64,000 nucleotides of DNA from Belliella alkalica (GTDB lineage Bacteria > Bacteroidota > Bacteroidia > Cytophagales > Cyclobacteriaceae), in NCBI RefSeq assembly GCF_022549785.1, contig NZ_JAKZGO010000010.1:62001-126000 (forward strand), read 5' to 3'. This document shows positions 7,937 through 44,884 of this stretch, one piece after another; the stretch's first letter is position 1, and each line of letters opens with the position of its first letter. Position numbers and translations under genes: made by a program. A model generated the notes under the pieces. That model had not been told where the DNA came from. It searched no databases and saw only the letters and a list, made by a program, of their open reading frames with translations.

Positions 7937-8962
7937 ATGAAAAAATATTTGTTATTATTTAGCTTGATGGCCATTGTGAGCTTTGCTTTCGGAGGAAATC
8001 ATGAATCACTTTACGCTGAGAAGGATAGTATCATCGTAGAGTTTGGAAAGTCTGGAAAAGTCGTATTGATAGTCGATAATAAGGAAGATTTTGAAAGATT
8101 GAAATCAATGAATATCAATCAGATAATCAAGGAGTTGGATTTGCAACTTAATGAAGAGACGGGAGAGCTCACTGTAGTAGAAATCAAAAATAAATCAGGA
8201 AACAAAGAAATAGTAAGAGTAAGGGAAGATGGTCCTGAGACGGAAGTATCGGTTGGTAGGTATAAAGTGATTGTAGATGAATCTGGAGGAAATACAAAAA
8301 TCAAGGTTGAAACAAATCCAAAGAAACGTAAAGATCCTCCATTCAGAACATATTTCAATTTGGATTTAGGTATCAATACTTACTTGGATGGAAATGGAAA
8401 TTTCCCTTCTTCAAGTGATCCATTTGCAACCAAAGGCTGGGGAAGTTGGAATGTTGGTTTGAATTGGATGGCATCACAAAGATTGGCAAAAGGCTTTTAT
8501 TGGGACTTTGGTTTGGGTGTACAATGGTATAATTTCAAGTTTGAGAATAGAGATTTTCAGGCTGTCAGAGGGAATGACGAAATCGATTTTATTCAAAGAA
8601 ATGACGTCAACGGATTCAAAAGTAAAATTTCAGCATCATACCTGACAGCTCAAACTCTCTTGAAACTTGATTTTGGAAAAATGAATGACAATGGGAAAAA
8701 AGGAGTAAGAATAGCAGCAGGTCCTTATGTAGGTTACAGATTAGGTGGGGGAAGCAAGTTTGTATATAGAGAACTAGATGGTGGTGGACGAAGAAAAGCC
8801 AAACAAAACACAGGAGTCTATCTCAATAACTTCAGATATGGTGTAAGGGGAGAAGTAGGAGTAGGAAGGTTCAATTTCTTCTCTACTTATGACTTGAATA
8901 CCTTATTCCAAGATGGAAGAGGCCCTGAACTTCACCCGATCACTTTTGGAGTGATATTTTAA
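7937..8962 (+). CDS. Outer-membrane beta-barrel protein (ECF operon, first copy)
   Basis: The 341-residue protein has a signal peptide (MKKYLLLFSLMAIVSFAFG), a charged N-terminal part of about 115 residues, then a barrel domain. The barrel has alternating strands such as 'FNLDLGINTYLDGNG', 'WGSWNVGLNWMASQRL', 'WDFGLGVQWYNFKFE', 'GPYVGYRLGGGSKFVY' and a final 'HPITFGVIF' that ends in phenylalanine, as outer-membrane barrels do. It is a paralogue of the next gene, sharing WGSWNV, WYNFKFE, KSKISASYL and NNFRYG. It starts 20 bp after the anti-sigma-like gene. It is probably a target and sensor-related product of the ECF system. Confidence 0.85.
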   Translation: MKKYLLLFSLMAIVSFAFGGNHESLYAEKDSIIVEFGKSGKVVLIVDNKEDFERLKSMNINQIIKELDLQLNEETGELTVVEIKNKSGNKEIVRVREDGPETEVSVGRYKVIVDESGGNTKIKVETNPKKRKDPPFRTYFNLDLGINTYLDGNGNFPSSSDPFATKGWGSWNVGLNWMASQRLAKGFYWDFGLGVQWYNFKFENRDFQAVRGNDEIDFIQRNDVNGFKSKISASYLTAQTLLKLDFGKMNDNGKKGVRIAAGPYVGYRLGGGSKFVYRELDGGGRRKAKQNTGVYLNNFRYGVRGEVGVGRFNFFSTYDLNTLFQDGRGPELHPITFGVIF

Positions 8963-9010
8963 AAAGTAATTTTATAAACCTTTTTGTAAAGTATTTAAGC
9001 TGAGAAAAAA

Positions 9011-9811
9011 ATGAAGAAGATATTATTGATACTATGTTTTGGGGTGTTCTTTTCAGGAAATTCCTTTTCACAAGAGGAAGAAAAAGGAGATTTAGAAAAA
9101 AAGGAAATAGTAAAGACCAAAGATTTTAAACTATTTGGTTCAGAATGGCACTATGAAAAGTATGCCGACAAATCATACACATTGATTACAAACGACGGGG
9201 ATATTGATATCTCAGGAAGAAAGAAGCGCAGATATCAAAGGTCATTAAATTTTGACTTGGGAATCAATACTTGGATTAATGATGAGACTGCACCCACTGT
9301 AAAACCATGGGGAAGTTGGAATGTGGCGATTAATTATCAGCATCAGTACAAGTTTGGTAAGAATTTCTCTTTGAACCCTTCTATTGGTGTGAGTTGGTAT
9401 AATTTCAAATTTGAGGACACTAACCTGATTGCTGTAAAAGAGACAGATGGAATAGAATTTCAAGATTTCAATGGAGGCGTAGGTACCAAGTCAAAAATTT
9501 CCGCATCGTACCTGAATTTGAGTTTGATTCCGATAGTGCACAGTAGTAATGGTAAGTTTAGGTTTGGGATTGGACCATATGCAGGACTTCGATTGGGAGG
9601 GAGAGGTAAATTTGTTTATGATGATCAGAATGGACGATCTCGTAAATTGTTTGAAAAGTCAAACATGTACGCAAACAATTTCAGATATGGAGGCAGAGTA
9701 GTGCTGGGAGTATCAAATGTAGATTTGTTTGTCAATTATGATTTGAATGAGTTCTTTGAAAAAGACAAAGGACCTAGAGTAAATGCATTGAGTTTTGGTT
9801 TAATTTTATAA
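9011..9811 (+). CDS. Outer-membrane beta-barrel protein (ECF operon, second copy)
   Basis: The 266-residue protein has a signal peptide (MKKILLILCFGVFFSGNSFS) and a barrel domain like that of the preceding gene, with the shared phrases 'LGINTW', 'KPWGSWNVAINYQ', 'SWYNFKFED', 'KSKISASYLNL', 'GPYAGLRLGGRGKFVY' and the end 'NALSFGLIL'. The charged N-terminal part is about 75 residues shorter than in the first copy. The two genes most likely arose by tandem duplication and then diverged. Cargo or structural role is unknown. Confidence 0.85.
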   Translation: MKKILLILCFGVFFSGNSFSQEEEKGDLEKKEIVKTKDFKLFGSEWHYEKYADKSYTLITNDGDIDISGRKKRRYQRSLNFDLGINTWINDETAPTVKPWGSWNVAINYQHQYKFGKNFSLNPSIGVSWYNFKFEDTNLIAVKETDGIEFQDFNGGVGTKSKISASYLNLSLIPIVHSSNGKFRFGIGPYAGLRLGGRGKFVYDDQNGRSRKLFEKSNMYANNFRYGGRVVLGVSNVDLFVNYDLNEFFEKDKGPRVNALSFGLIL

Positions 9812-34268: not shown

Positions 34269-34654
34269 GATGATATACTAGAGGTGAGAAGCGAGATATG
34301 AGAAGGGATGCGGGATGCGAGATATGAGATATCAGACATAAGAAAAAGTTGTCTACGACTACGTGATCTCTCTCCCGAATGCTTTCGGGAAAGAGATCAC
34401 GTCCCTTTTTGAAACTGGAAAGTTAAAATTGAAGATGGGGTGTTAAATTCAGTATGAGATTTCTCCCCGTAATTCTACGGGGCAGGCTCCTTTAGTCGAA
34501 ATGACTTGCCTATAAAACGAGAGGATAAGTATAAAAAAAAGTGTCAAGTTATTTCAGGAAGCGACATGATAAACCTACCTTCTGAATTCTAAGAACTCAA
34601 TTACCTCAATGAACTCCTAGATGGCAGCTTTTATCAAATATCTATTACCCTTCC
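34269..34654. other. Gene-free stretch with REP-like repeats
   Basis: No gene is seen. The left half has near-repeats of GCGAGATATGAGA and GGGATGCGAGATATGAG (34286-34331). A long hairpin follows (34361-34402). Further right are a CCCCGTA/TACGGGG palindrome (about 34466-34483) and TCGAAATGACTTG, a kind of sequence I recall from dispersed repeats in other Bacteroidota. The right end runs into the 3' end of the minus-strand TPR gene. Confidence 0.5.
34361..34402. repeat. Long inverted repeat
   Basis: ACGTGATCTCTCTCCCGAA pairs with TTCGGGAAAGAGATCACGT across a 4-nt loop with a single mismatch. A short T-run (CCCTTTTT) follows, so it may end the mltG operon transcript. The strength of the stem and the REP-like surroundings also fit a repeat element. 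Confidence 0.6.
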
Positions 34655-36015: not shown

Positions 36016-37098
36016 ATGATTATGAAAAAAGTAAATTACTGGTTAGCCAGTGCTTTGATTGGATCTTTGGTCGTTTTTTCATCATGTAATGATGATGATG
36101 ACGGACCAGATATGATGGACGATTCGTTTTACACAGTGCAGTTGGGAGGGGAAACGCGAGTTTCGGATCCTAACAATCCTGGACAAATGGTCGAGCAAGG
36201 TTTCCTAAACCTAAGGACAGTTGTGACAAATACAGTAATGACTATTGCCACAAATGAAGACGGAAAGTATGATGCACTGCAGCCATATTTCAGTGTATTG
36301 TTGAATGAAGTAGGACGTGGAGAGACATCTGGGTTTACTACTTTGGTGGGTGATTTTACTGAATTTTTGGCAGAAGCTACAGGTTCGAGAAACTTCACTT
36401 ACAGTGGATTGGATATGGAAGCAGCGCATGATCCAGCAAGAAATTCTAGAATGAATGGAAGAATCAACAATGCTGATTATGATTTATTTGTACAGGCAGT
36501 AGTAGAAGGTGCTGCTCAGGCAAATATCACATCCAATGAGGTTTTAGGTCCAGTTGGACAATTGTTGGAATCTGTGAGAGAGCCTATTGTGCAGAGAGCA
36601 GATAATGAAGGATTGGATCTATATACAAGATTGGGGGGTAGCGGAATGATTGATGTTTCAGGTGATAATGAACCAGAAAGATTGGTAGAAGCTGGTTACG
36701 CTCCATTGGAAGCGGTTGTAACAAGTACTGTGATGATTATTGCTGATAATAATGGAGGTAAATACGATGCGCTTCAGCCTTATTTCTCTGTTTTGCTAGC
36801 TGAAGTAACTTCAGGTAACAATTCTGGATTCACTACACTGGTAACTGATTTCTCTGAGTTTTTGGCGGAAGCTATAGGTTCTGTAAACATCGAATATTCA
36901 GGATTGAATATGGTAGATGCACACAATCCTGCTACAAATTCAAGAATGACTGGATTAGTTTCTGCAGCGGATTATGATCTATTTATTGGAGCAGTGGTAG
37001 AAGGAGCAGTAGAAAACAATGTTCCTGAAAGCGTTATAGGAGAATTTGGAGCTTTATTGACAAGCCCAGGTTTGAAAGATGCGATTGTGCAGAGGTAA
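36016..37098 (+). CDS. Lipoprotein with two tandem truncated-haemoglobin-like domains
   Basis: The 360-residue protein has a lipoprotein signal (C24 in FSSCNDDDD). Two copies of a ~165-residue unit follow, about 38-194 and 203-360. Each has the order seen in group-1 truncated globins: 'LGG' near the start (LYTRLGG in the second unit), 'YFSVLL', 'FT/SEFLAEA-GS', 'YSGL-M--AH-PA-NSRM', 'ADYDLF', 'AVVEGA', and a terminal 'IVQR'. H138 and H303 sit where the proximal haem histidine (F8) is expected. The usual B10 tyrosine is not visible, so haem and ligand behaviour may differ. Translation may start at 36016 or 36022. A strong terminator follows. Confidence 0.72.
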   Translation: MIMKKVNYWLASALIGSLVVFSSCNDDDDGPDMMDDSFYTVQLGGETRVSDPNNPGQMVEQGFLNLRTVVTNTVMTIATNEDGKYDALQPYFSVLLNEVGRGETSGFTTLVGDFTEFLAEATGSRNFTYSGLDMEAAHDPARNSRMNGRINNADYDLFVQAVVEGAAQANITSNEVLGPVGQLLESVREPIVQRADNEGLDLYTRLGGSGMIDVSGDNEPERLVEAGYAPLEAVVTSTVMIIADNNGGKYDALQPYFSVLLAEVTSGNNSGFTTLVTDFSEFLAEAIGSVNIEYSGLNMVDAHNPATNSRMTGLVSAADYDLFIGAVVEGAVENNVPESVIGEFGALLTSPGLKDAIVQR

Positions 37099-37199: not shown

Positions 37200-37922
37200 T
37201 CCCTACGGGACTTTTACCGAGCCGCAAGTTTCGTGGGTCGGTGGGTTGAAACCCACCGTTAAGATGTCTGTCGTGCCGCTGGCACTGGAAAATAGGTGTA
37301 TCTACTGGAAGTGGGATTTGCTATCAGCTCCATAGGAGCGATCGATGTATTAGTCATGGATTTCAATCCATGGCAAGGAGGTTGGCTATCATACCATGAA
37401 GTCCGCTAGGGATAAGTGAGATGGTTTGTTGATCAATCAGTAAAGATATCGTCCGTCCCTACGGGACTTTTACCGAGCCGCAAGTTTCGTGGGTCGGTGG
37501 GTTTCAACCCACCGTTAAGATGTCTGTCGTGCCGGTGGCACTGGAAAGTAGGTGTGTTGACTGGAAGTGGGATTTGCTATTAGCTCCATAGGAGCGACCG
37601 ACGCATTAGTCTTGGATTTCAATTCATGACAAGGAGATTATCATCCAACCGTGAAGTCCGCTAGGGACAAGTTAGATGGTTTGATGATCAATCAGTAAAG
37701 ATATCTTTCATCCCTACGGGACTTTTGCCGAGTCGTATGTTTTGTGGGTCGGTGGGTTGAAACCCACCGTTATGATGTCTGTCGTGCCGGTGGCACTGGA
37801 AAATAGGTGTATCTACTGGAAGTGGGATTTGCTATCAGCTCCATAGGAGCGATCGATGTATTAGTCATGGATTTCAATCCATGGCAAGGAGGTTACCACC
37901 CAACCGTGAAGTCCCGTAGGGA
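37200..37922. repeat. Cloverleaf repeat block A (three units)
   Basis: Three units start at 37200, 37456 and 37711 and end at 37412, 37667 and 37922, with ~43-bp linkers. Each opens with TCCCTACGGGACTT. Four hairpins follow: GGTGGGTT/AACCCACC, GTGCC/GGCAC, GCTCC/GGAGC and a fourth of the ATGGATT/AATCCAT type. Each unit closes with an inverse copy of the opening word: AAGTCCGCTAGGGA in units 1 and 2 (two central mismatches) and the perfect complement AAGTCCCGTAGGGA in unit 3. Loops and linkers vary more than stems. No coding frame is conserved across the units. Confidence 0.93.
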
Positions 37923-38238
37923 TGAGCGATAAGGTTTTTGACTAGTGTATTTTGTCTTTCTTTAGCCTCTTCAGGGTCGGAAAGATGAAAGGGTTTTGTT
38001 CTTTTATCAATGGTTTTTAACCATTGTTTTATAATGTAACCATTTCATAGTTGGTTGACAAAAGAGACTTGTTTGATTATCAGAAGCTATTAATTTCAAA
38101 AAATAAATATCAATAATTAACTACTGCCCTGTAAGGGCAAGAGCTTCTAACAATGGGTGCAGCCCATTGCACAAGATGCTGCTATTATCAGTAATGCCCT
38201 GAAAGGGCATCTGAATAATCATGTTTTAGAGATTTCTC
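37923..38238. repeat. Block-A tail with four further hairpins
   Basis: This stretch is nearly identical to 40898-41213. It contains palindromes CAATGGTTTTTAACCATTG, TGCCCTGTAAGGGCA, CAATGGGTGCAGCCCATTG and ATGCCCTGAAAGGGCAT. No gene is seen. It joins the last cloverleaf unit to the conserved right-end sequence. Confidence 0.85.
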
Positions 38239-38345
38239 TGCTAGCTAATTCGATTTGCCAGAGCGAGATTGGGCAAACCCGATGCCCGGAAAAGGTTGGG
38301 AAAAAATGAAAATTTATTTAGATTATGGAAAATTTAAAAGAATTG
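38239..38345 (+). repeat. Conserved right-end sequence of block A
   Basis: TGCTAGCTAATTCGATTTGC, GAGCGAGATTGGG and ATGCCCGGAAAAGGTTGGG, then AAATTTATTTAGATTATGG, recur in the same order at the right end of the other blocks. An ATG at 38282 opens a 23-codon frame (MPGKGW...KIYLDYGKFKR) that is also open after block B. It may be a short peptide, a remnant of a gene, or non-coding. Confidence 0.75.
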
Positions 38346-38376
38346 AAGAGTAGATAAAGTATAAATCAACGCAGTT

Positions 38377-38514
38377 ATGAAAAAGAAAACATTTCAATTT
38401 TTAATAATAGTAGCCTCTTTCCTTTTGTCACTGATGATATTCAATGATTGGGATGATTTCAAAAGGGGCTTGAAAGGAGAACGCTCACTCCAAAAAAGTG
38501 AAAATACTAATTGA
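38377..38514 (+). CDS. 45-residue secreted or membrane micro-protein
   Basis: An ATG at 38377 opens a frame of 45 codons: a basic start (MKKKTFQF), a hydrophobic segment (LIIVASFLLSLMIF) and a charged end with NDWDDFKRGLKGE. The layout resembles small single-pass Bacteroidota proteins ending in W-x-x-FK-x-GL-x-G, which I recall but cannot check. It begins 32 bp after the right-end sequence of block A and is the only gene before block B. Function is unknown. Confidence 0.6.
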   Translation: MKKKTFQFLIIVASFLLSLMIFNDWDDFKRGLKGERSLQKSENTN

Positions 38515-38615
38515 CTTATAATTAGTAGTAATTGATATCTTTTATCTATGAGTTTTAATCCAATATCTAATTTAGCAACTGTATATTTTGAGGTTTAACT
38601 ATTTATTTTCATCCA

Positions 38616-38827
38616 TCCCTACGGGACTTTCCCTTCATCGCAAGTGTCTAAGGTCGGTGGGTTGAAACCCACCGTTAAGATGTCTGTCGTGCCGCTGGCA
38701 CTGGAAAGCAGGTATATCTAATGAAAGTGGGATTTGCTATTAGCTCCATAGGAGCGACCGATGTATTTGTCATGGATTTCAATCCATGACAAGGAGTTAG
38801 CCATCATACCATGAAGTCCGCTGGGGA
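38616..38827. repeat. Cloverleaf repeat block B (one unit)
   Basis: A single unit has the opening word TCCCTACGGGACTT, the same four hairpins, and the closing word AAGTCCGCTGGGGA, which is one base further decayed (A to G) than the usual internal form. It is followed directly, without the long tail, by the conserved right-end sequence. Confidence 0.92.
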
Positions 38828-38865
38828 TAAGTGAGATGATTTGATGATCAATCAGCATAACACTA

Positions 38866-38968
38866 TGCTAGCTAATTTGATTTGCTTGGGATAGATTGGG
38901 AGTACTCGATGCCCGGAAAAGGTTGGGGAAAAGTGAAGATTTATTTAGATTTTGGAAAATTTAAAAGG
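38866..38968 (+). repeat. Conserved right-end sequence of block B
   Basis: The same word order as after block A is present (TGCTAGCTAATTTGATTTGC, GATTGGGAG, ATGCCCGGAAAAGGTTGGGG, TTTATTTAGATTTTGG). The MPGKGW frame stays open here and runs in frame into the start of the downstream protease-like gene, but the gene's own signal peptide starts later, at 38993. Confidence 0.75.
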
Positions 38969-38992
38969 ACAACGAAGTTATTTAAAGCTGAC

Positions 38993-39835
38993 ATGAAAAA
39001 GTTCTACTTTCTAATAATAGTTGCATTTTTTGCTTCTTGCAAACCTATTAAAAAAAGTGATTTTTATTTTGATGATCAGGGTTTTCTAGTAGTTGAAATT
39101 TCTATAAGTGGGAGTAAAGGGAAATTTATTTTTGATACTTGTGCAGAAGCAACTGTGATTTCAAAAAAATTAGTTAATGACTTAAATTTAGTTCCACACA
39201 GACAAATTTCTATAAATAAAACAAAAATAGTTGATGTTGTTTACATTCCTTCTGTTAAGATCAATGGGTTTGAGCTTTTTCAAGTTGAGGCAGCTGTTAT
39301 AGATATGAATAATGAAACCTTTGGGGAGCTTGGATATGGTGGTATTTTAGGTTTGAATTTAATTTACTTATTTGTTTGGGATTTTGATTTAAAAAACAAT
39401 TTACTTCAGGTATATAAAAATCAACCTAACTTTCAGAAAAACCTAAATGTCCTTGAATATAAAAAAATTGAACAAACAGGGTTGCCATTCATAGAGATTA
39501 ATTTAGACTTTTTCAACTCCGATTCCGTTTTTTTTGATACTGGTTTTACAGGGTTTCTTTCAGTTAATAATCTAGTAGATACAGCAAACTTAGACTTTAA
39601 AAAAATCACTGAAAATCAAAAATTTGTCTTTGGGGTTGAAAACCAAAAAGTTGCTCACTACTCAGCAATGGAATTTGAATTGTTTGGAAAGTATTTTGAA
39701 GAGGAGACTATTATTCACAATATTCATCCAAAGAGGGATAAAGAGCTAATTGGAAATTTATTTGTTCAATCTTTCGATCGATTCATATTTGATCCAAAAA
39801 ACTCCCAAATTTTACTTTCTCAAGGTGAAAAATGA
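38993..39835 (+). CDS. Aspartyl-protease-like (retropepsin-type, two-lobe) lipoprotein
   Basis: From the ATG at 38993 the product has 280 residues with a lipoprotein signal (lipobox FASC, C16). Two lobes follow, each with a hydrophobic-D-T motif of retropepsin-like proteases: FIFDTCAEA (D48-T49-C50) and VFFDTGFTG (D182-T183-G184). The second motif is canonical DTG; the first has Cys in place of Gly, which could reduce activity. Flap-like sequences 'GYGGILGLNLIYLF' and 'LIGNLFVQSFDRFIFD' support the fold. It sits alone between repeat blocks B and C. Substrate is unknown. Confidence 0.82.
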   Translation: MKKFYFLIIVAFFASCKPIKKSDFYFDDQGFLVVEISISGSKGKFIFDTCAEATVISKKLVNDLNLVPHRQISINKTKIVDVVYIPSVKINGFELFQVEAAVIDMNNETFGELGYGGILGLNLIYLFVWDFDLKNNLLQVYKNQPNFQKNLNVLEYKKIEQTGLPFIEINLDFFNSDSVFFDTGFTGFLSVNNLVDTANLDFKKITENQKFVFGVENQKVAHYSAMEFELFGKYFEEETIIHNIHPKRDKELIGNLFVQSFDRFIFDPKNSQILLSQGEK

Positions 39836-39921
39836 TATTTAAAAATTTTCATATATAAAATGTAATTATAATAATTTTTATTTAAAGAATTGTGGGCGAT
39901 TTCTAGATAGGTAATCGTCCG

Positions 39922-40897
39922 TCCCTACGGGACTTTTACCGAGTCGCAAGTTTCGTGGGTCGGTGGGTTTCAACCCACCGTTATGATGTGTGTCGTGCCG
40001 CTGGCACTGGAATGCTGGTATATTGATTGAAAGTGGGATTTGCTATAAGCTCCATAGGAGCGATCGACGCATTAGTCATGGATTTCAATTCATGACAAGG
40101 AGATTACCATCCAACCGTGAAGTCCGCTAGGGATAAGTTAGATGGTTTGATGATCAATCAGTAAAGATATCTTTCATCCCTACGGGACTTTCTCTGCATC
40201 GCAAGTTTCGTTGATCGGTGGGTTGAAACCCACCGTTAAGATGTCTGTCGTGCCGCTGGCACTGGAAAGTAGGTATATCGAATGAAAGTGGGATTTGCTA
40301 TTAGCTCCATAGGAGCGACCGACGCATTAGTCATGGATTTCAATTCATGACAAGGATTTAGCCATCATACCATGAAGTCTGCTAGGGATGAATGATATGG
40401 TTTGAGGTCAATCAGCAAAGATATCATCCGTCCCTACGGGACTTTTACCAAGTCGCAAGTTTCGTGGGTCAGTGGGTTGAAACCCACCGTTATGAAGTCG
40501 GTCGTGCCGCTGGCACTGGAAAGTAGATGTGTTGACTGGAAGTGGGATTTTCTATCAGCTCCATAGGAGCGACCGATGTATTAGTCATGGATTTCAATCC
40601 ATGACAAGGAGATTGCCATGCTGCCATGAAGTCCGCTGGGGATAAGTGAGATGGTTTGATGATCAATCAGTAAAGATATCGTCCATCCCTACGGGACTTT
40701 CGCTGAGCCGCAAGTTTCGTGGGTCAGTGGGTTGAAACCCACCGTTAAGATGTCTGTCGTGCCGCTGGCACTGGAAAGCTGATATATCGACTGAAAGTGG
40801 GATTTGCAATTAGCTCCATAGGAGCGACCGATCTATTAGTCATGGATTTCAATCCATGACAAGGAGATTACCACCCAACCGTGAAGTCCCGTAGGGA
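39922..40897. repeat. Cloverleaf repeat block C (four units)
   Basis: Units start at 39922, 40177, 40431 and 40686 and end at 40133, 40388, 40642 and 40897. The first three close with the internal form (AAGTCCGCTAGGGA or a one-base variant such as AAGTCTGCTAGGGA); the last closes with the perfect complement AAGTCCCGTAGGGA. The four internal hairpins are present in all units, with stem bases nearly invariant. Confidence 0.93.
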
Positions 40898-41213
40898 TGA
40901 GCGATACGGTTTTTGACTAGTGTATTTTGTCTTTCTTTAGACTCTTCAGGACTGGAAAGATGAAAGGGTTTTGTTCTTTTATCAATGGTTTTTAGCCATT
41001 GTTTTAATATGTAACCATTTCATAGTTTGTTGACAAAAGAGACTTGTTTGATTATCAGAATCTACTAATTTTAAAAAATAAATATCAATTTTAGACTACT
41101 GCCCTGTAAGGGCAAGAGCTTCTAACAATGGGTGCAGCCCATTGCACAAGATGCTGCTATTATCAGTAATGACCTGAAAGGGCATCTGAATAATCATGTT
41201 TTAGAGATTTCTA
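40898..41213. repeat. Block-C tail, second copy
   Basis: Close copy of the tail at 37923-38238. One hairpin keeps its pairing by a wobble change (TTAACCATT becomes TTAGCCATT), while ATGCCCTGAAAGGGCAT becomes ATGACCTGAAAGGGCAT and loses a pair. No gene is seen. Confidence 0.85.
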
Positions 41214-41316
41214 TGCTAGCTAATCTGATTTACCAGAGCGAGATTGGGAAATACAGATGCCCAGGAAAGGTTGGTAACTAAAGAAAATTTATTTATTTTG
41301 ACCAAAATTTAAAGGA
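41214..41316 (+). repeat. Conserved right-end sequence of block C
   Basis: The shared words are present (TGCTAGCTAATCTGATTTACC, GAGCGAGATTGGGA, ATGCCCAGGAAAGGTTGG), but the MPGKGW-type frame is cut by a stop after six codons (MPRKGW*). The sequence is more decayed than after blocks A and B. Confidence 0.7.
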
Positions 41317-41317
41317 C

Positions 41318-41430
41318 ATGGGAAAAAAATAAAAGTTAAAATTTTCCTTACTACAGTTGCTGTTTTGTTTATTTATGAAGTAGGTTCTCATTTTCTTTTA
41401 GGGTTATTCAGTCCATTTGTTCTGAATTAA
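41318..41430 (+). pseudogene. Possible frameshifted small membrane peptide
   Basis: ATG GGA AAA AAA TAA at 41318 stops at once. One extra base in the run of seven A would join this start to an open frame that ends at 41430 and encodes a basic start, a hydrophobic segment (KIFLTTVAVLFIY) and a short tail (EVGSHFLLGLFSPFVLN). It could be a decayed gene, a slippage-expressed peptide or a sequencing error in a homopolymer. Confidence 0.35.
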
Positions 41431-41452
41431 AGTTGAAAAATACAGATTCAAT

Positions 41453-41830
41453 ATGCTAGAAAGGGATATTATTCTAAGGTGGCTTAGGTCGTTTTCTGAA
41501 GGTTTGCTAAGGGTAGTAGGCAAGGTACACATATTGGAAGAGGAGAGAAAAAAAGAATTTGCCAAGTTGTATCAGACCTTTTTCGATATGAATAGAGAAT
41601 CATTCTTGAAAACAGAAAAGGATGGTTTTTTTGAAGGCTTGTTTAACTCAGATGAAGATCTTCAAATTAGAAAAGAAAAGTTAGTAGCATTGTGTGAATT
41701 GATTGAGACTGATTTAAAGTTTGAAAAAAATGAAGAAATTAAAACGAATCTTAGTAAAAAGATTGGGATGTTGAAGGATGTCTTAAATGAGCAATATGGA
41801 TTTGAGTATTTGGATTTTAATAGATCATGA
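41453..41830 (+). CDS. Small helical protein of unknown function (cassette gene)
   Basis: The 125-residue protein has no signal peptide or membrane segment and reads as mainly alpha-helical and charged ('GLLRVVGKVHILEEERKKEFAKLYQTFF', 'EDLQIRKEKLVALCELIETDLKFEKNEEI'). No family is recognised. It is the first intact gene after block C and is followed by a 39-residue membrane peptide and a CPBP protease on the same strand, so the three may work together. Confidence 0.7.
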   Translation: MLERDIILRWLRSFSEGLLRVVGKVHILEEERKKEFAKLYQTFFDMNRESFLKTEKDGFFEGLFNSDEDLQIRKEKLVALCELIETDLKFEKNEEIKTNLSKKIGMLKDVLNEQYGFEYLDFNRS

Positions 41831-41848
41831 ATTTTTGAGGTCTCGATT

Positions 41849-41968
41849 ATGAAATATTTGGAATACGCATTTTGGTTTTCTATGGCTGTGATATCTATTT
41901 GCTTGTTTGCTTATGGATTTGGGTATTTTATAGGAATGAAAGACTGTGTAGAACTTTGCAATAGATAA
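41849..41968 (+). CDS. 39-residue membrane micro-protein
   Basis: An ATG at 41849 opens a frame for 39 residues: 'MKYLEYAFW', one membrane segment of about 22 residues (FSMAVISICLFAYGFGYFIGM) and a polar end with two cysteines (KDCVELCNR). It lies 18 bp after the 125-residue gene and 24 bp before the CPBP protease gene. A short membrane peptide next to a membrane protease recalls bacteriocin/immunity or signal-peptide systems, but this is inference. Confidence 0.5.
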   Translation: MKYLEYAFWFSMAVISICLFAYGFGYFIGMKDCVELCNR

Positions 41969-41992
41969 TTAAACTAGTTTAAATAGAAAAAT

Positions 41993-42640
41993 ATGAAACA
42001 AACCTTTACCAAACTAATAACTTTTCTCAAATCCCCGCATCATAGAGATTCTTTTGGAAACATAAAAGGAAGAGAATTTTTGTATCTGCTTTTGATAGCT
42101 TTTGCCATTGTGATTCCTTATGCACTTATTTTGGATTTGGCTGGTGTGGATGAGTTTGACCACAAGTTTGATATTCTTATAAAAAAATATAAATGGCTTT
42201 TAGTTATTCTTGGTGTTTTAATTGCTCCTTTGCTTGAAGAACCAATTTATAGGTTGCACCTAGATTTTAAAAAATCATCAATTTGGTGGAGTTTGGGACT
42301 CTCTGTTTTTGTAATCAGCGAAGCTTGGATTACCGTAGTTTTGTTATGGATTTGGTTGTTTTTCTTGCTGTTTAAGGTGAACAAAGGTGATCAACCAAAC
42401 TTAAAGTACAGCGTTTTTATTTCTTCAGCACTTTTTGCACTTGTACATCTAATGAATTTCAAAGAATTCGATTATGCACAATATTTCTATTGGGTGCCTT
42501 TTATGGTAGGTGCCCAATTTTTGATTGGTTTAGTACTGAGTTATATTAGGTTGAATTATGGCATGAAATGGGCGATTATTTTCCATGGAGTATATAATGC
42601 TATCTTGATCATACCAGCAGTATATTTTTATGAAGTTTGA
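41993..42640 (+). CDS. CPBP-family intramembrane metalloprotease
   Basis: The 215-residue membrane protein has the three CPBP (Abi/CAAX) motifs in order: E82-E83-x-x-x-R87 in APLLEEPIYRL, F148-x-x-x-H152 in LFALVHLMNF, and H198-x-x-x-N202 in FHGVYNAIL. These form the glutamate/histidine metal site of the family. Members process prenylated proteins or serve bacteriocin self-immunity. It is the last gene before block D, which begins 18 bp after its stop. Its two small neighbours are candidate substrates or partners. Confidence 0.88.
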   Translation: MKQTFTKLITFLKSPHHRDSFGNIKGREFLYLLLIAFAIVIPYALILDLAGVDEFDHKFDILIKKYKWLLVILGVLIAPLLEEPIYRLHLDFKKSSIWWSLGLSVFVISEAWITVVLLWIWLFFLLFKVNKGDQPNLKYSVFISSALFALVHLMNFKEFDYAQYFYWVPFMVGAQFLIGLVLSYIRLNYGMKWAIIFHGVYNAILIIPAVYFYEV

Positions 42641-42657
42641 GCGTGTAATATCGTCCG

Positions 42658-43632
42658 TCCCTACGGGACTTTTACCGAGTCGCAAGTTTCTTGGGTCGGT
42701 GGGTTGAAACCCACCGTTAAGAAGTCGGTCGTGCCGCTGGCACTGGAAAGTAGGTGTGTCGAATGGAAGTGGGGTTTGCTATCAGCTCCATAGGAGCGAC
42801 CGACGCATTAGTCATGGATTTCAATTCATGACAAGGAGATTACCATCCAACCGTGAAGTCCGCTAGGGATAAGTTAGATGGTTTGATGATCAATCAGTAA
42901 AGATATCGTCCATCCCTACGGGACTTTCTCTGCATCGCAAGTTTCTTGGGTCGGTGGGTTGAAACCCACCGTTAAGATGTCTGTCGTGCCGCTGGCACTG
43001 GAAAGCTGGTATATCGACTGGAAGTGGGATTTGCTATCAGCTCCATAGGAGCGACTGAGGTATCAGTCATGGATTTCAATACATGACAAAGATATTGCCA
43101 TCATACCATGAAGTCCGCTAGGGATAAGTGATATGGTTTGATGATCAATCAGCAAAGATATCGTCCGTCCCTACGGGACTTTTGCCGAGTCGCAAGTTTC
43201 GTGGGTCGGTGGGTTGAAACCCACCGTTAAGATGTCTGTCGTGCCGCTGGCACTGGAAAGCTGGTATATCGGATGAAAGTGGGATTTGCTATCAGCTCCA
43301 TAGGAGCGACCGATGTATTAGTCATGGATTTCAATCCATGACAAGGGGTAGACATGCTATCCAAAAGTCCCGTAGGGAAGTGTGATATGGTTTGATAATC
43401 AATCAGTAAAGATATCGTCCATCCCTACGGGACTTTTGCCGAGTCGCAAGTTTCGTGGGTCGGTGGGTTGAAACCCACCGTTAAGATGTCTGTCGTGCCG
43501 CTGGCACTGGAAAGCTGGTATATCGGATGAAAGTGGGATTTGCAATTAGCTCCATAGGAGCGACCGATGAATTAGTCATGGATTTCAATCCATGACAGGG
43601 GGTAGACATGCTATCCAAAAGTCCCGTAGGGA
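42658..43632. repeat. Cloverleaf repeat block D (four units)
   Basis: Units start at 42658, 42913, 43168 and 43422 and end at 42869, 43124, 43378 and 43632. Units 1 and 2 close with AAGTCCGCTAGGGA; units 3 and 4 close with the perfect AAGTCCCGTAGGGA, and both have CTATCCAA before the closing word instead of the CCATGAA/CCGTGAA of other units, which suggests that unit 3 and unit 4 share a recent copy event. The block starts immediately after the CPBP gene. Confidence 0.93.
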
Positions 43633-43789: not shown

Positions 43790-44884
43790 TTACAAAACCC
43801 CCTTCGTACTCGGGAGTTGATTTAGGGCGTTAAGGTCTCTTTTAACAGCCATTTTGATTGCTCTTGCCATGGCTTTGAAGATAGCTTCTATTTTGTGGTG
43901 TTCATTTGCGCCTTCAGCTTTGATGTTGAGGTTGCACTTGGCAGTGTCAGAGAATGATTTGAAGAAATGGTAGAACATTTCTGTAGGCATTTCACCGATT
44001 TTTTCTCTTTTGAATTCAGCTTCCCACATCATCCATGGTCGTCCTCCAAAATCAATAGCACACTGAGCCAAAACATCATCCATTGGAAGTAAAAATCCAT
44101 ATCTATAGATTCCCTTTTTATCTCCCAATGCTTTTAAATAGGCTTCCCCAAGTGCCAAAGCTGTATCTTCGATGGTGTGATGTTCATCAATATGCAAATC
44201 ACCATTGACATGGATTTCTAAATCTGTTCCGCCGTGCTTGCCTAGTTGCTCGAGCATGTGGTCAAAGAAATGCAAACCTGTGCTGATGTTACATTTTCCT
44301 GTTCCATCAAGGTTAAGGCTGATTTTGATATCTGTCTCAGAGGTCTTTCGCTCTACTTTAGCTTTTCTAGCGGGAAGTCTTAGAAACTCGTAAATCTCAT
44401 CCCAAGATTTGGTTGAAAACGTCGCCTCTTCAAGCTTTTCACCAATTAAAATAGATTTGCTTCCTAGATTTTTTGCTAATTGAACGTCTGTCTTGCGGTC
44501 GCCTATCACATAGGAGTTGGCTAAATCATAGGTGCCATTTTGATACTCGGTAAGCATAGCAATACCAGGTTTTCTGGTTGGTAGATTTTCATGTTCAAAT
44601 GAACGATCGATATGGACAGCTGAAAAATTGATTCCTTCATTTTCCAAAGTCTTCATCATTTTGTTATGTGCTGGCCAAAAAGTATCCTCCGGAAATGAAT
44701 CCGTGCCCAAGCCGTCTTGGTTCGTAACCATGACCAATTCAAAATCACACTCTTCGGCAATTTTTCTCAAATTACTTAATGCCTTGGGATAGAATTCTAA
44801 TTTTTCAAGACTATCCACCTGATAGTCCGTGGGTGGCTCGATGATGATCGTGCCATCGCGATCTATAAATAATACTTTCTTCAT
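43790..44884 (-). CDS. hisB: Bifunctional histidinol-phosphatase / imidazoleglycerol-phosphate dehydratase
   Basis: This enzyme performs steps 6 and 8 of histidine synthesis. The 364-residue protein has an N-terminal HAD-type phosphatase (about 1-165; [32 protein letters not shown]) and a C-terminal IGP dehydratase (about 175-364) with the manganese-binding motifs DEHHTIEDT and ANEHHKIEA and the segment '[17 protein letters not shown]'. The fusion is the E. coli-like layout and is common in Bacteroidota. Its start overlaps hisC by 4 bp. It is the last gene of the cluster here; hisHAFI are not in the window. Confidence 0.96.

Follow-up and report, generated by a model that had tools for sequence, protein, structure and literature searches.

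The repeat array between a conserved gene and hisB

The window analysed here is a whole 64-kb stretch of the Belliella alkalica genome (G000, contig C95, positions 62001-126000; G001-G007 denote other genomes of the genus), and between 37200 and 43632 it carries an array of 12 hairpin-rich repeat units, whose architecture and relation to a group of small transposases are considered below. Each unit is 211-213 bp long, and together they form three tandem blocks and one solitary unit, with the whole array lying between a conserved gene for a 360-aa protein, which starts at 36016, and hisB. Block 1 comprises U1 (37200-37412), U2 (37456-37667) and U3 (37711-37922) and is followed by the solitary U4 (38616-38827); block 2 comprises U5 (39922-40133), U6 (40177-40388), U7 (40431-40642) and U8 (40686-40897), and block 3 comprises U9 (42658-42869), U10 (42913-43124), U11 (43168-43378) and U12 (43422-43632), with no strand assigned to any of them. 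Spacing within blocks is 254-256 bp and the units are 84-98% identical pairwise, also being recovered as tandem repeats by Tandem Repeats Finder (TRF). The re-measured coordinates confirmed the number, length and in-block period given in a preliminary description of this DNA. No tRNA, and no Rfam family at gathering score, was detected in the window, and tRNA, tmRNA and Rfam families were dropped as the identity of the units, since nothing matched.

The conserved gene (36016-37098, + strand) forms the left border of this island, and its product matches neither a Pfam nor an NCBIfam family at E 0.001. The right border is a convergent gene (43790-44884, - strand) that we take to be hisB, judging by its sequence and its setting in the his operon, no family search having been run on it. 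Within the island, all on the + strand, are an aspartyl protease gene (PF13650; 38993-39835, with a start codon of our choosing) between U4 and block 2, a 125-aa open reading frame without a Pfam family (41453-41830) between blocks 2 and 3, and a CPBP/Rce1-like intramembrane protease gene (PF02517; 41993-42640), with U9 beginning 17 bp past its stop codon. Units likewise lie close behind copies of the CPBP-protease gene at L097, L099 (twice), L100 and L101, several of them in other genomes of the genus, though not behind every copy. The 36016-37098 gene itself resembles a tandem duplication of one domain, as the matches in G005 and G006 are confined to residues 1-195, a stretch also matched by residues 222-360.

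A second hairpin family is present as a triplet downstream of block 1 (38125-38210; tgccct-GTA-agggca, caatggg..cccattg and atgccct-GAA-agggcat) and as another copy downstream of block 2 (41100-41190), in which only the first two hairpins are perfect. The stretches that follow blocks 1 and 2 repeat one another in sequence, and ordinary recombination between units is sufficient to account for this part of the island's growth, with its repeated stretches and the genes carried along. Behind blocks or units there is also a repeated tail that begins with GCTAGCTAAT; it occurs four times in the window (38240, 38867, 41215 and 43669) and is present behind the single unit of G003. Elsewhere in the window, between convergent genes at 34373-34482, the hairpins tcccgaa-TGCT-ttcggga and ccccgta-ATTC-tacgggg are either terminators or another small palindrome family.

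At the hisB locus of the genus there is one unit in G003 (between two terminators), two in G001, two in G007, three in G002 and twelve in the window, with no element in G005 and G006. Downstream of the 36016-type gene of G004 there are at least 13 copies, 11 of them full length, and the contig ends inside the array. Among nine stretches from other genera, hisB stands beside the 36016 homologue with no element in G028, G049 and G053, and in the remaining six, where hisB falls outside the stretch, no element was found.

Hairpin architecture of the units

All 12 units open with the word TCCCTACGGGACTT, as the preliminary description had claimed. That description also gave each unit four hairpin arms in fixed order, of which arms 1, 2 and 3 do occur in all 12, but the exact ATGGATT/AATCCAT stem of arm 4 is restricted to seven, with letters changed in U2, U5, U6, U9 and U10. 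Similarly, the closing word is the exact inverse of the opening word in four units (U3, U8, U11 and U12), while the other eight keep 12 of the 14 pairs. The opening word forms a small hairpin on its own (TCCC-TAC-GGGA), as does the closing word in the same four units, and this closing hairpin retains three of its four pairs in the remaining eight; each unit is thus a mirror-symmetric row of six hairpins. Measured from the left end, the first small hairpin starts at position 1, the large one at 40-42 and the second small one at 74; the corresponding starts from the right end are 1, about 36-41 and 72-74. One module makes up the unit, present twice in opposite orientations; it is a small-large-small hairpin row of ~97 nt with centres ~43 and ~30 nt apart, and with near-fixed spacing, an ATCGGTC-like 5' context before the small hairpins and mostly T after them. 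When left and right halves were compared without the end words, the score exceeded the best of 200 shuffles in none of 13 elements, so the halves are unlike in their letters and the mirror symmetry is one of hairpin positions, which was later borne out by the covariance model search described below.

Folding energy was evaluated for one unit, U12, and was far better than that of shuffled sequence, with z-scores of -5.7 and -6.0 for the two strands as DNA and -5.9 for the + strand as RNA, and with none of 200 shuffles matching it. For covariation we used an alignment of 29 copies (A1), in which the 12 window units were joined by 16 copies contributed by six further genomes of the genus and by a single one at the C10 locus introduced in the next section; the alignment excludes copies in L100, L104, L105, part of L099 and to the left of the C10 gene. 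Here the local hairpins contained both-side changes in eight pairs and 21 cells (reached by 1/500 and 0/500 shuffles), whereas the long closing helix contained one such pair, which 238/500 shuffles also reached. Furthermore, six copies (G1a, G1b, G2a, G2b, G2c and G7a) have TCAC-NNN-GTGA as their closing word, so that the local hairpin is preserved but the long closure is broken at that pair. Closure of the whole unit as a four-armed structure, as originally suggested, does occur in the predicted folds of U12 and is energetically possible, but it is unsupported by a closing helix whose covariation is no better than that of shuffles; the covariation looked for in relatives is present, and it supports independent hairpins. 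Alignment A3 was not used as covariation evidence because its perfect pairing is a product of selection. In both copies of L103 (G007), at L099:11972-12209 (G004) and in L101 (G006) the loop of arm 2 contains a self-folding insert of ~26 bp, which looks as if one palindrome had entered another.

Hairpin modules beside TnpA_Y1 subclass 1.2 genes

G000 contains five matches to PF01797, and one of these is a 153-aa transposase encoded at C10:48828-49172 (L002), with the motifs DHIH, WQ and YIKNQESHH. From these motifs the protein is assigned to the small HUH/Y1 transposases, and specifically to TnpA_Y1 subclass 1.2. It carries all three motifs by which the group was tested (DH[IV]H, WQ and Y---Q--HH), and a looser pattern of the three together fits 52 of 60 homologues. 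It scored 67.3 bits against NF033573 (IS200/IS605 transposase, subclass 1.1; cut-off 55) and 27.9 bits against NF047646 (REP_Tyr_transpos), far below the cut-off of 80, and its closest solved relative by sequence is the IS608 TnpA (E 6e-4). Copy number is low, as the protein is found once at 100% identity in G000, where the other three are at 37-39%, and once at 99% in G004, where further matches are at 35-40%. The gene is single-copy at the same place in both genomes, and with one per genome in G000 and G004 no near-identical copies in the style of IS200/IS605 elements were seen.

On one side of the C10 gene lies a complete but diverged unit, and on the opposite side the same modules form a longer mosaic. 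Stems of the diverged unit are changed on both sides, e.g. CGTGGGTT/AACCCACG, and, unlike in the window units, there is no pairing between its opening word and its closing hairpin, ATGCC-GTA-GGCAT. At the C10-type locus of G004 there are four tandem copies of a gene for a 361-362-aa protein, with elements after all three copies scanned; in this stretch (L110:8320-15371) the C-terminal parts of the proteins are alike and the N-terminal parts varied, with hairpin elements between the genes. Other subclass 1.2 genes have hairpins of their own. The second such gene on the contig of the window (L003; G000:C95:19954) lies among tandem triplets of ~135-139 bp with other stems and is flanked by relatives of the second-family triplet, as pieces of 22-86 nt with 72-95% identity, and L004 has seven hairpins within 600 bp of the gene ends. 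Around the fourth gene (L001; G000:C1:450999) there are no G+C-rich hairpins, and a long direct repeat seems, by eye, to be shared by both sides. Among 12 further relatives in the genus, 11 have hairpins near the gene, often small-large-small, yet with other stems, and one (L175) has none. G000 also encodes a class 2 REP-associated transposase (L005; G000:C40:151591; NF047646, 89.1 bits), flanked by other, longer hairpins (gtgtagtt-TGC-aactacac), and in G004 two equal-scoring subclass 1.2 homologues lie 1.4 kb apart (C22:6812-7249 and 8690-9127), perhaps through a recent tandem duplication.

We then considered 60 transposase loci, comprising 27 and 30 homologue loci from two sets and three genes of G000 itself (L132 being the L002 gene again). 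Within 600 bp of these genes there were 394 perfect hairpins, compared with 31 in dinucleotide shuffles, and at least four were present at 46 of the loci. For non-coding DNA at 59 loci, hairpin density fell from 9.68/kb close to the genes to 1.97/kb at distances above 1 kb. Distances between small and large centres, with no preselection, peaked at 28-31 and 40-43 nt, and 28 of 37 small-large pairs from outside the genus, preselected at 27-33 nt, were separated by exactly 30.5 nt. A large-small pair was found at 20 of the 60 loci, mostly beside the proteins nearest to L002 (median identity 62% versus 47%), and loci with more distant proteins tended to have small hairpins only. The small hairpins mostly have a 5-bp stem and a 3-nt loop, with T following the second small hairpin in 48 of 51 modules, T at -6 of the 5' context in 39 and C at -1 in 34, although the 51 include several modules per locus and are hence not independent. 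In many Bacteroidota the module clusters around subclass 1.2 genes, where its stems are spelled quite differently but its geometry is preserved and the linking sequence is similar.

R1, a covariance model for the large-small part, was trained on 18 of the 36 distinct modules, each of them from outside the genus and next to a transposase gene, leaving out the modules of L134 (two of which forced a gap), spacings of 28.5, 29.5 and 31.5 nt, and extras beyond two per locus. In the 64-kb window R1 found all 24 half-units with E-values of 3e-19 to 2e-8, 12 on the + strand and 12 on the - strand, one of each per unit and in the predicted order and orientation. These half-modules (+ then - in each unit) are at 37233-37288 and 37324-37379 in U1, 37489-37544 and 37580-37635 in U2, 37744-37799 and 37835-37890 in U3, 38649-38704 and 38740-38795 in U4, 39955-40010 and 40046-40101 in U5, 40210-40265 and 40301-40356 in U6, 40464-40519 and 40555-40610 in U7, 40719-40774 and 40810-40865 in U8, 42691-42746 and 42782-42837 in U9, 42946-43001 and 43037-43092 in U10, 43201-43256 and 43292-43347 in U11, and 43455-43510 and 43546-43601 in U12. 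Other matches, weaker than these 24, overlapped array hairpins, and beyond the array nothing in the 64 kb scored better than E 0.4.

Across G000, R1 detected 36 modules at E < 1e-7, with 23 in the array, six at the C10 transposase and seven elsewhere; dispersal of the REP (repetitive extragenic palindrome) kind amounts to the seven outside the array and the C10 locus, most modules being in the array, and four of the match loci were inspected. Canonical REPs usually number in the hundreds, far more than these modules. A copy on contig C9, a module of ~97 bp, shares just 98-113 bp with eight copies in G000, G001, G002 and G007 and has different flanks, and G001 seems to share the C9 site. In two settings at least, the module thus stands as a discrete unit. 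A longer dispersed repeat, with matches up to ~440 bp, also holds the module, at L204 and L205 (G000:C40) and at L233-L238 (G001, G007 and G002), with short variable stretches either side of it.

Among 296 Bacteroidota genomes, R1 matches occurred in 98 and a transposase homologue in 139, these counts being lower bounds; the R1 search used stricter filters and scored 19 candidates per genome. Matches were found in 67 of the 139 genomes with the transposase and 31 of the 157 without it, an odds ratio of 3.8 (Fisher test, ignoring relatedness and including four genomes, G337, G267, G345 and G309, that had also supplied modules to R1).

Probable mobility, rival explanations and known systems

Because the repeat family clusters around a little-studied transposase, the array probably represents mobile DNA and not a gene for a structured RNA, and the repeats are apparently an overlooked family that is widespread in Bacteroidota. 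More specifically, we consider it likely that the units are non-autonomous, REP-like elements on which subclass 1.2 transposases act in trans, and that they were amplified in tandem between the 36016 gene and hisB. For this count the C10 gene with modules on both sides, the R1 matches in the window and their higher frequency in genomes with the transposase, the enrichment of hairpins and the peaks in their centre distances, the range of copy numbers and the bare module shared by the C9 copy. The preliminary description had proposed a structured RNA, a protein-binding array or a mobile element of the REP or miniature inverted-repeat transposable element (MITE) kind; the last is supported, and a structured RNA has only the folding behind it.

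By analogy with IS200/IS605 and TnpA_REP transposases (PMC8266576), the L002-type protein should read a hairpin together with a 5' guide on single-stranded DNA. The transposase would then recognise folded single-stranded hairpins, probably on the exposed lagging-strand template, and would cut and rejoin them so that modules spread in trans, as is thought for TnpA_REP and REPs. The 5' context and the T after the second small hairpin are candidates for the guide and the cleavage site, respectively. In the intergenic interval flanked by the 36016 gene and hisB, the array may have grown as modules dimerised in inverted orientation and were duplicated repeatedly, in part through ordinary recombination between units, with genes taken along. 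We tentatively extend this to the phylum, where subclass 1.2 might be an unrecognised single-strand transposition system with a substrate of ~97 nt, in which the two same-oriented small hairpins would be left and right ends and the large hairpin, at its fixed distance, a third recognition point, the stem letters drifting with each transposase and the geometry staying locked.

Several observations weigh against the mobile-element interpretation. The C10 unit is 71% identical to a window unit, and over the first 88 nt only, which leaves some doubt as to which transposase currently partners the window family, and no hairpins at all were found within 600 bp of the L001 gene. Fewer than four were present at 14 of the 60 loci, and 72 of the 139 transposase genomes have no R1 match and 31 genomes have a match with no transposase; 17 of these 31 belong to one family, where the best matches are often near 1e-6 and may represent another element. 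Within the genus, six of eight genomes keep one to three units with no transposase of at least 50% identity, and the two rich in units look like sisters, so the correlation between transposase and array size (two with, six without) reflects one event and was set aside as support. Of nine dispersed copies compared, eight sit in the longer repeat with similar flanks; these were accordingly dropped as independent sites with unlike flanks, and C9 alone shows the bare module. For C9 there is no clean empty site, as the module is absent in G003, G002 and G007 and other indels occur there. Lastly, association of the module with the transposase is what was observed, and from it we infer movement, cleavage and binding, and the tandem amplification may be due to the transposase or to RecA-type duplication.

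Some of the same facts would also suit hairpins that are host sites for single-stranded DNA processing, replication or repair, with the subclass 1.2 protein a domesticated nuclease and no spreading. The single-copy C10-type gene at one place in G000 and its relative G004, the elements at one place, the hisB locus, in five genomes of the genus, and the scarcity of direct signs of dispersal all agree with such a role, which we none-the-less regard as unlikely, given that in one genome separate families, unlike in their stems, are each found with a transposase gene of their own, and that fixed host sites do not need the seven R1 places away from the array and C10. A transcribed regulatory RNA, terminator or mRNA-stabilising 3' element, or a protein-binding array, would explain the strong folding on both strands and the position of units behind stop codons, as at the window CPBP gene and near some relatives. 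This is improbable when copies at one site range from none to about a dozen, stem letters differ among the transposase loci of one genus with geometry constant, and no Rfam family matches; moreover, neither the mirror symmetry nor occurrence on both strands calls for a transcript. Far more doubtful still is an integron-like cassette array with the units as attC sites, which is suggested by the alternation of units with small genes and by the unit close behind the CPBP gene at several places. An attC site is one imperfect palindrome, whereas the units stand three or four in tandem with six local hairpins each, and an integron was rejected as none of eight matches in the genome exceeded the TIGR02249 integrase cut-off.

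We find no description of this architecture in the open-access literature, in line with the preliminary description, which knew of no such element. Palindrome-associated transposable elements (PATEs) are non-autonomous miniature derivatives of IS200-IS605 elements with two end hairpins, arising from a resident insertion sequence that has full copies. Our elements are also non-autonomous with end hairpins, both small hairpins having the same direction and similar 5' contexts, but no full insertion sequence copies of the L002-type transposase were seen. CGTC-tagged REPs, which are reported by Di Nocera et al. 2013 (PMC3733652) from five phyla including Bacteroidetes and Chlorobi with no dedicated transposase known, likewise are palindromes with a 5' tag, and Bacteroidetes are among their hosts. 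However, they have one stem of 8-9 bp that begins with A-T pairs, a 4-5 nt loop and a CCA-type tail, whereas here small stems of mostly 5 bp with 3-nt loops alternate with larger ones and are mostly followed by T.

The L002 protein resembles TnpA_Y1 subclass 1.2, as defined by Quentin et al. 2018 (PMC6006769), in its 153-aa length, its DHIH, WQ and YIKNQESHH motifs, its low copy number and its host phylum. For this subclass Table 1 of the same paper records "no" under REP, but most genes examined here are flanked by hairpin rows, with the 394 hairpins against 31 at the 60 loci. The orphan subclass thereby gains a candidate DNA partner that is short enough to be ordered as oligonucleotides and tested directly, and several pairs in one genome, with unlike stems and similar spacing, offer a natural series on how HUH transposases read folded DNA. 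Another close parallel is with REPs, their bacterial interspersed mosaic elements (BIMEs) and REP doublets forming hairpins (REPINs), and TnpA_REP (REP-associated tyrosine transposase, RAYT; REPtron), where, in the account of PMC6006769, small palindromes, often in inverted pairs, surround a mostly single-copy Y1 gene and have more copies elsewhere. Inverted pairing is matched here by the one + and one - R1 match in each unit. The differences from that account are a three-hairpin module with near-fixed spacing, a transposase of class 1 (Y---Q--HH) rather than class 2 (Y---NP), and a GT[AG]G foot that is no commoner than chance, being found 0-2 nt before the hairpin foot in 23 of 784 cases near the transposase genes and, within the island of the window, in 6 of 130, with ~2.3% expected (both strands). 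We place the system among those that pair REPs with a transposase; its three-hairpin module of near-fixed spacing is unusual, and it is assigned to a subclass for which no partner had been recorded.

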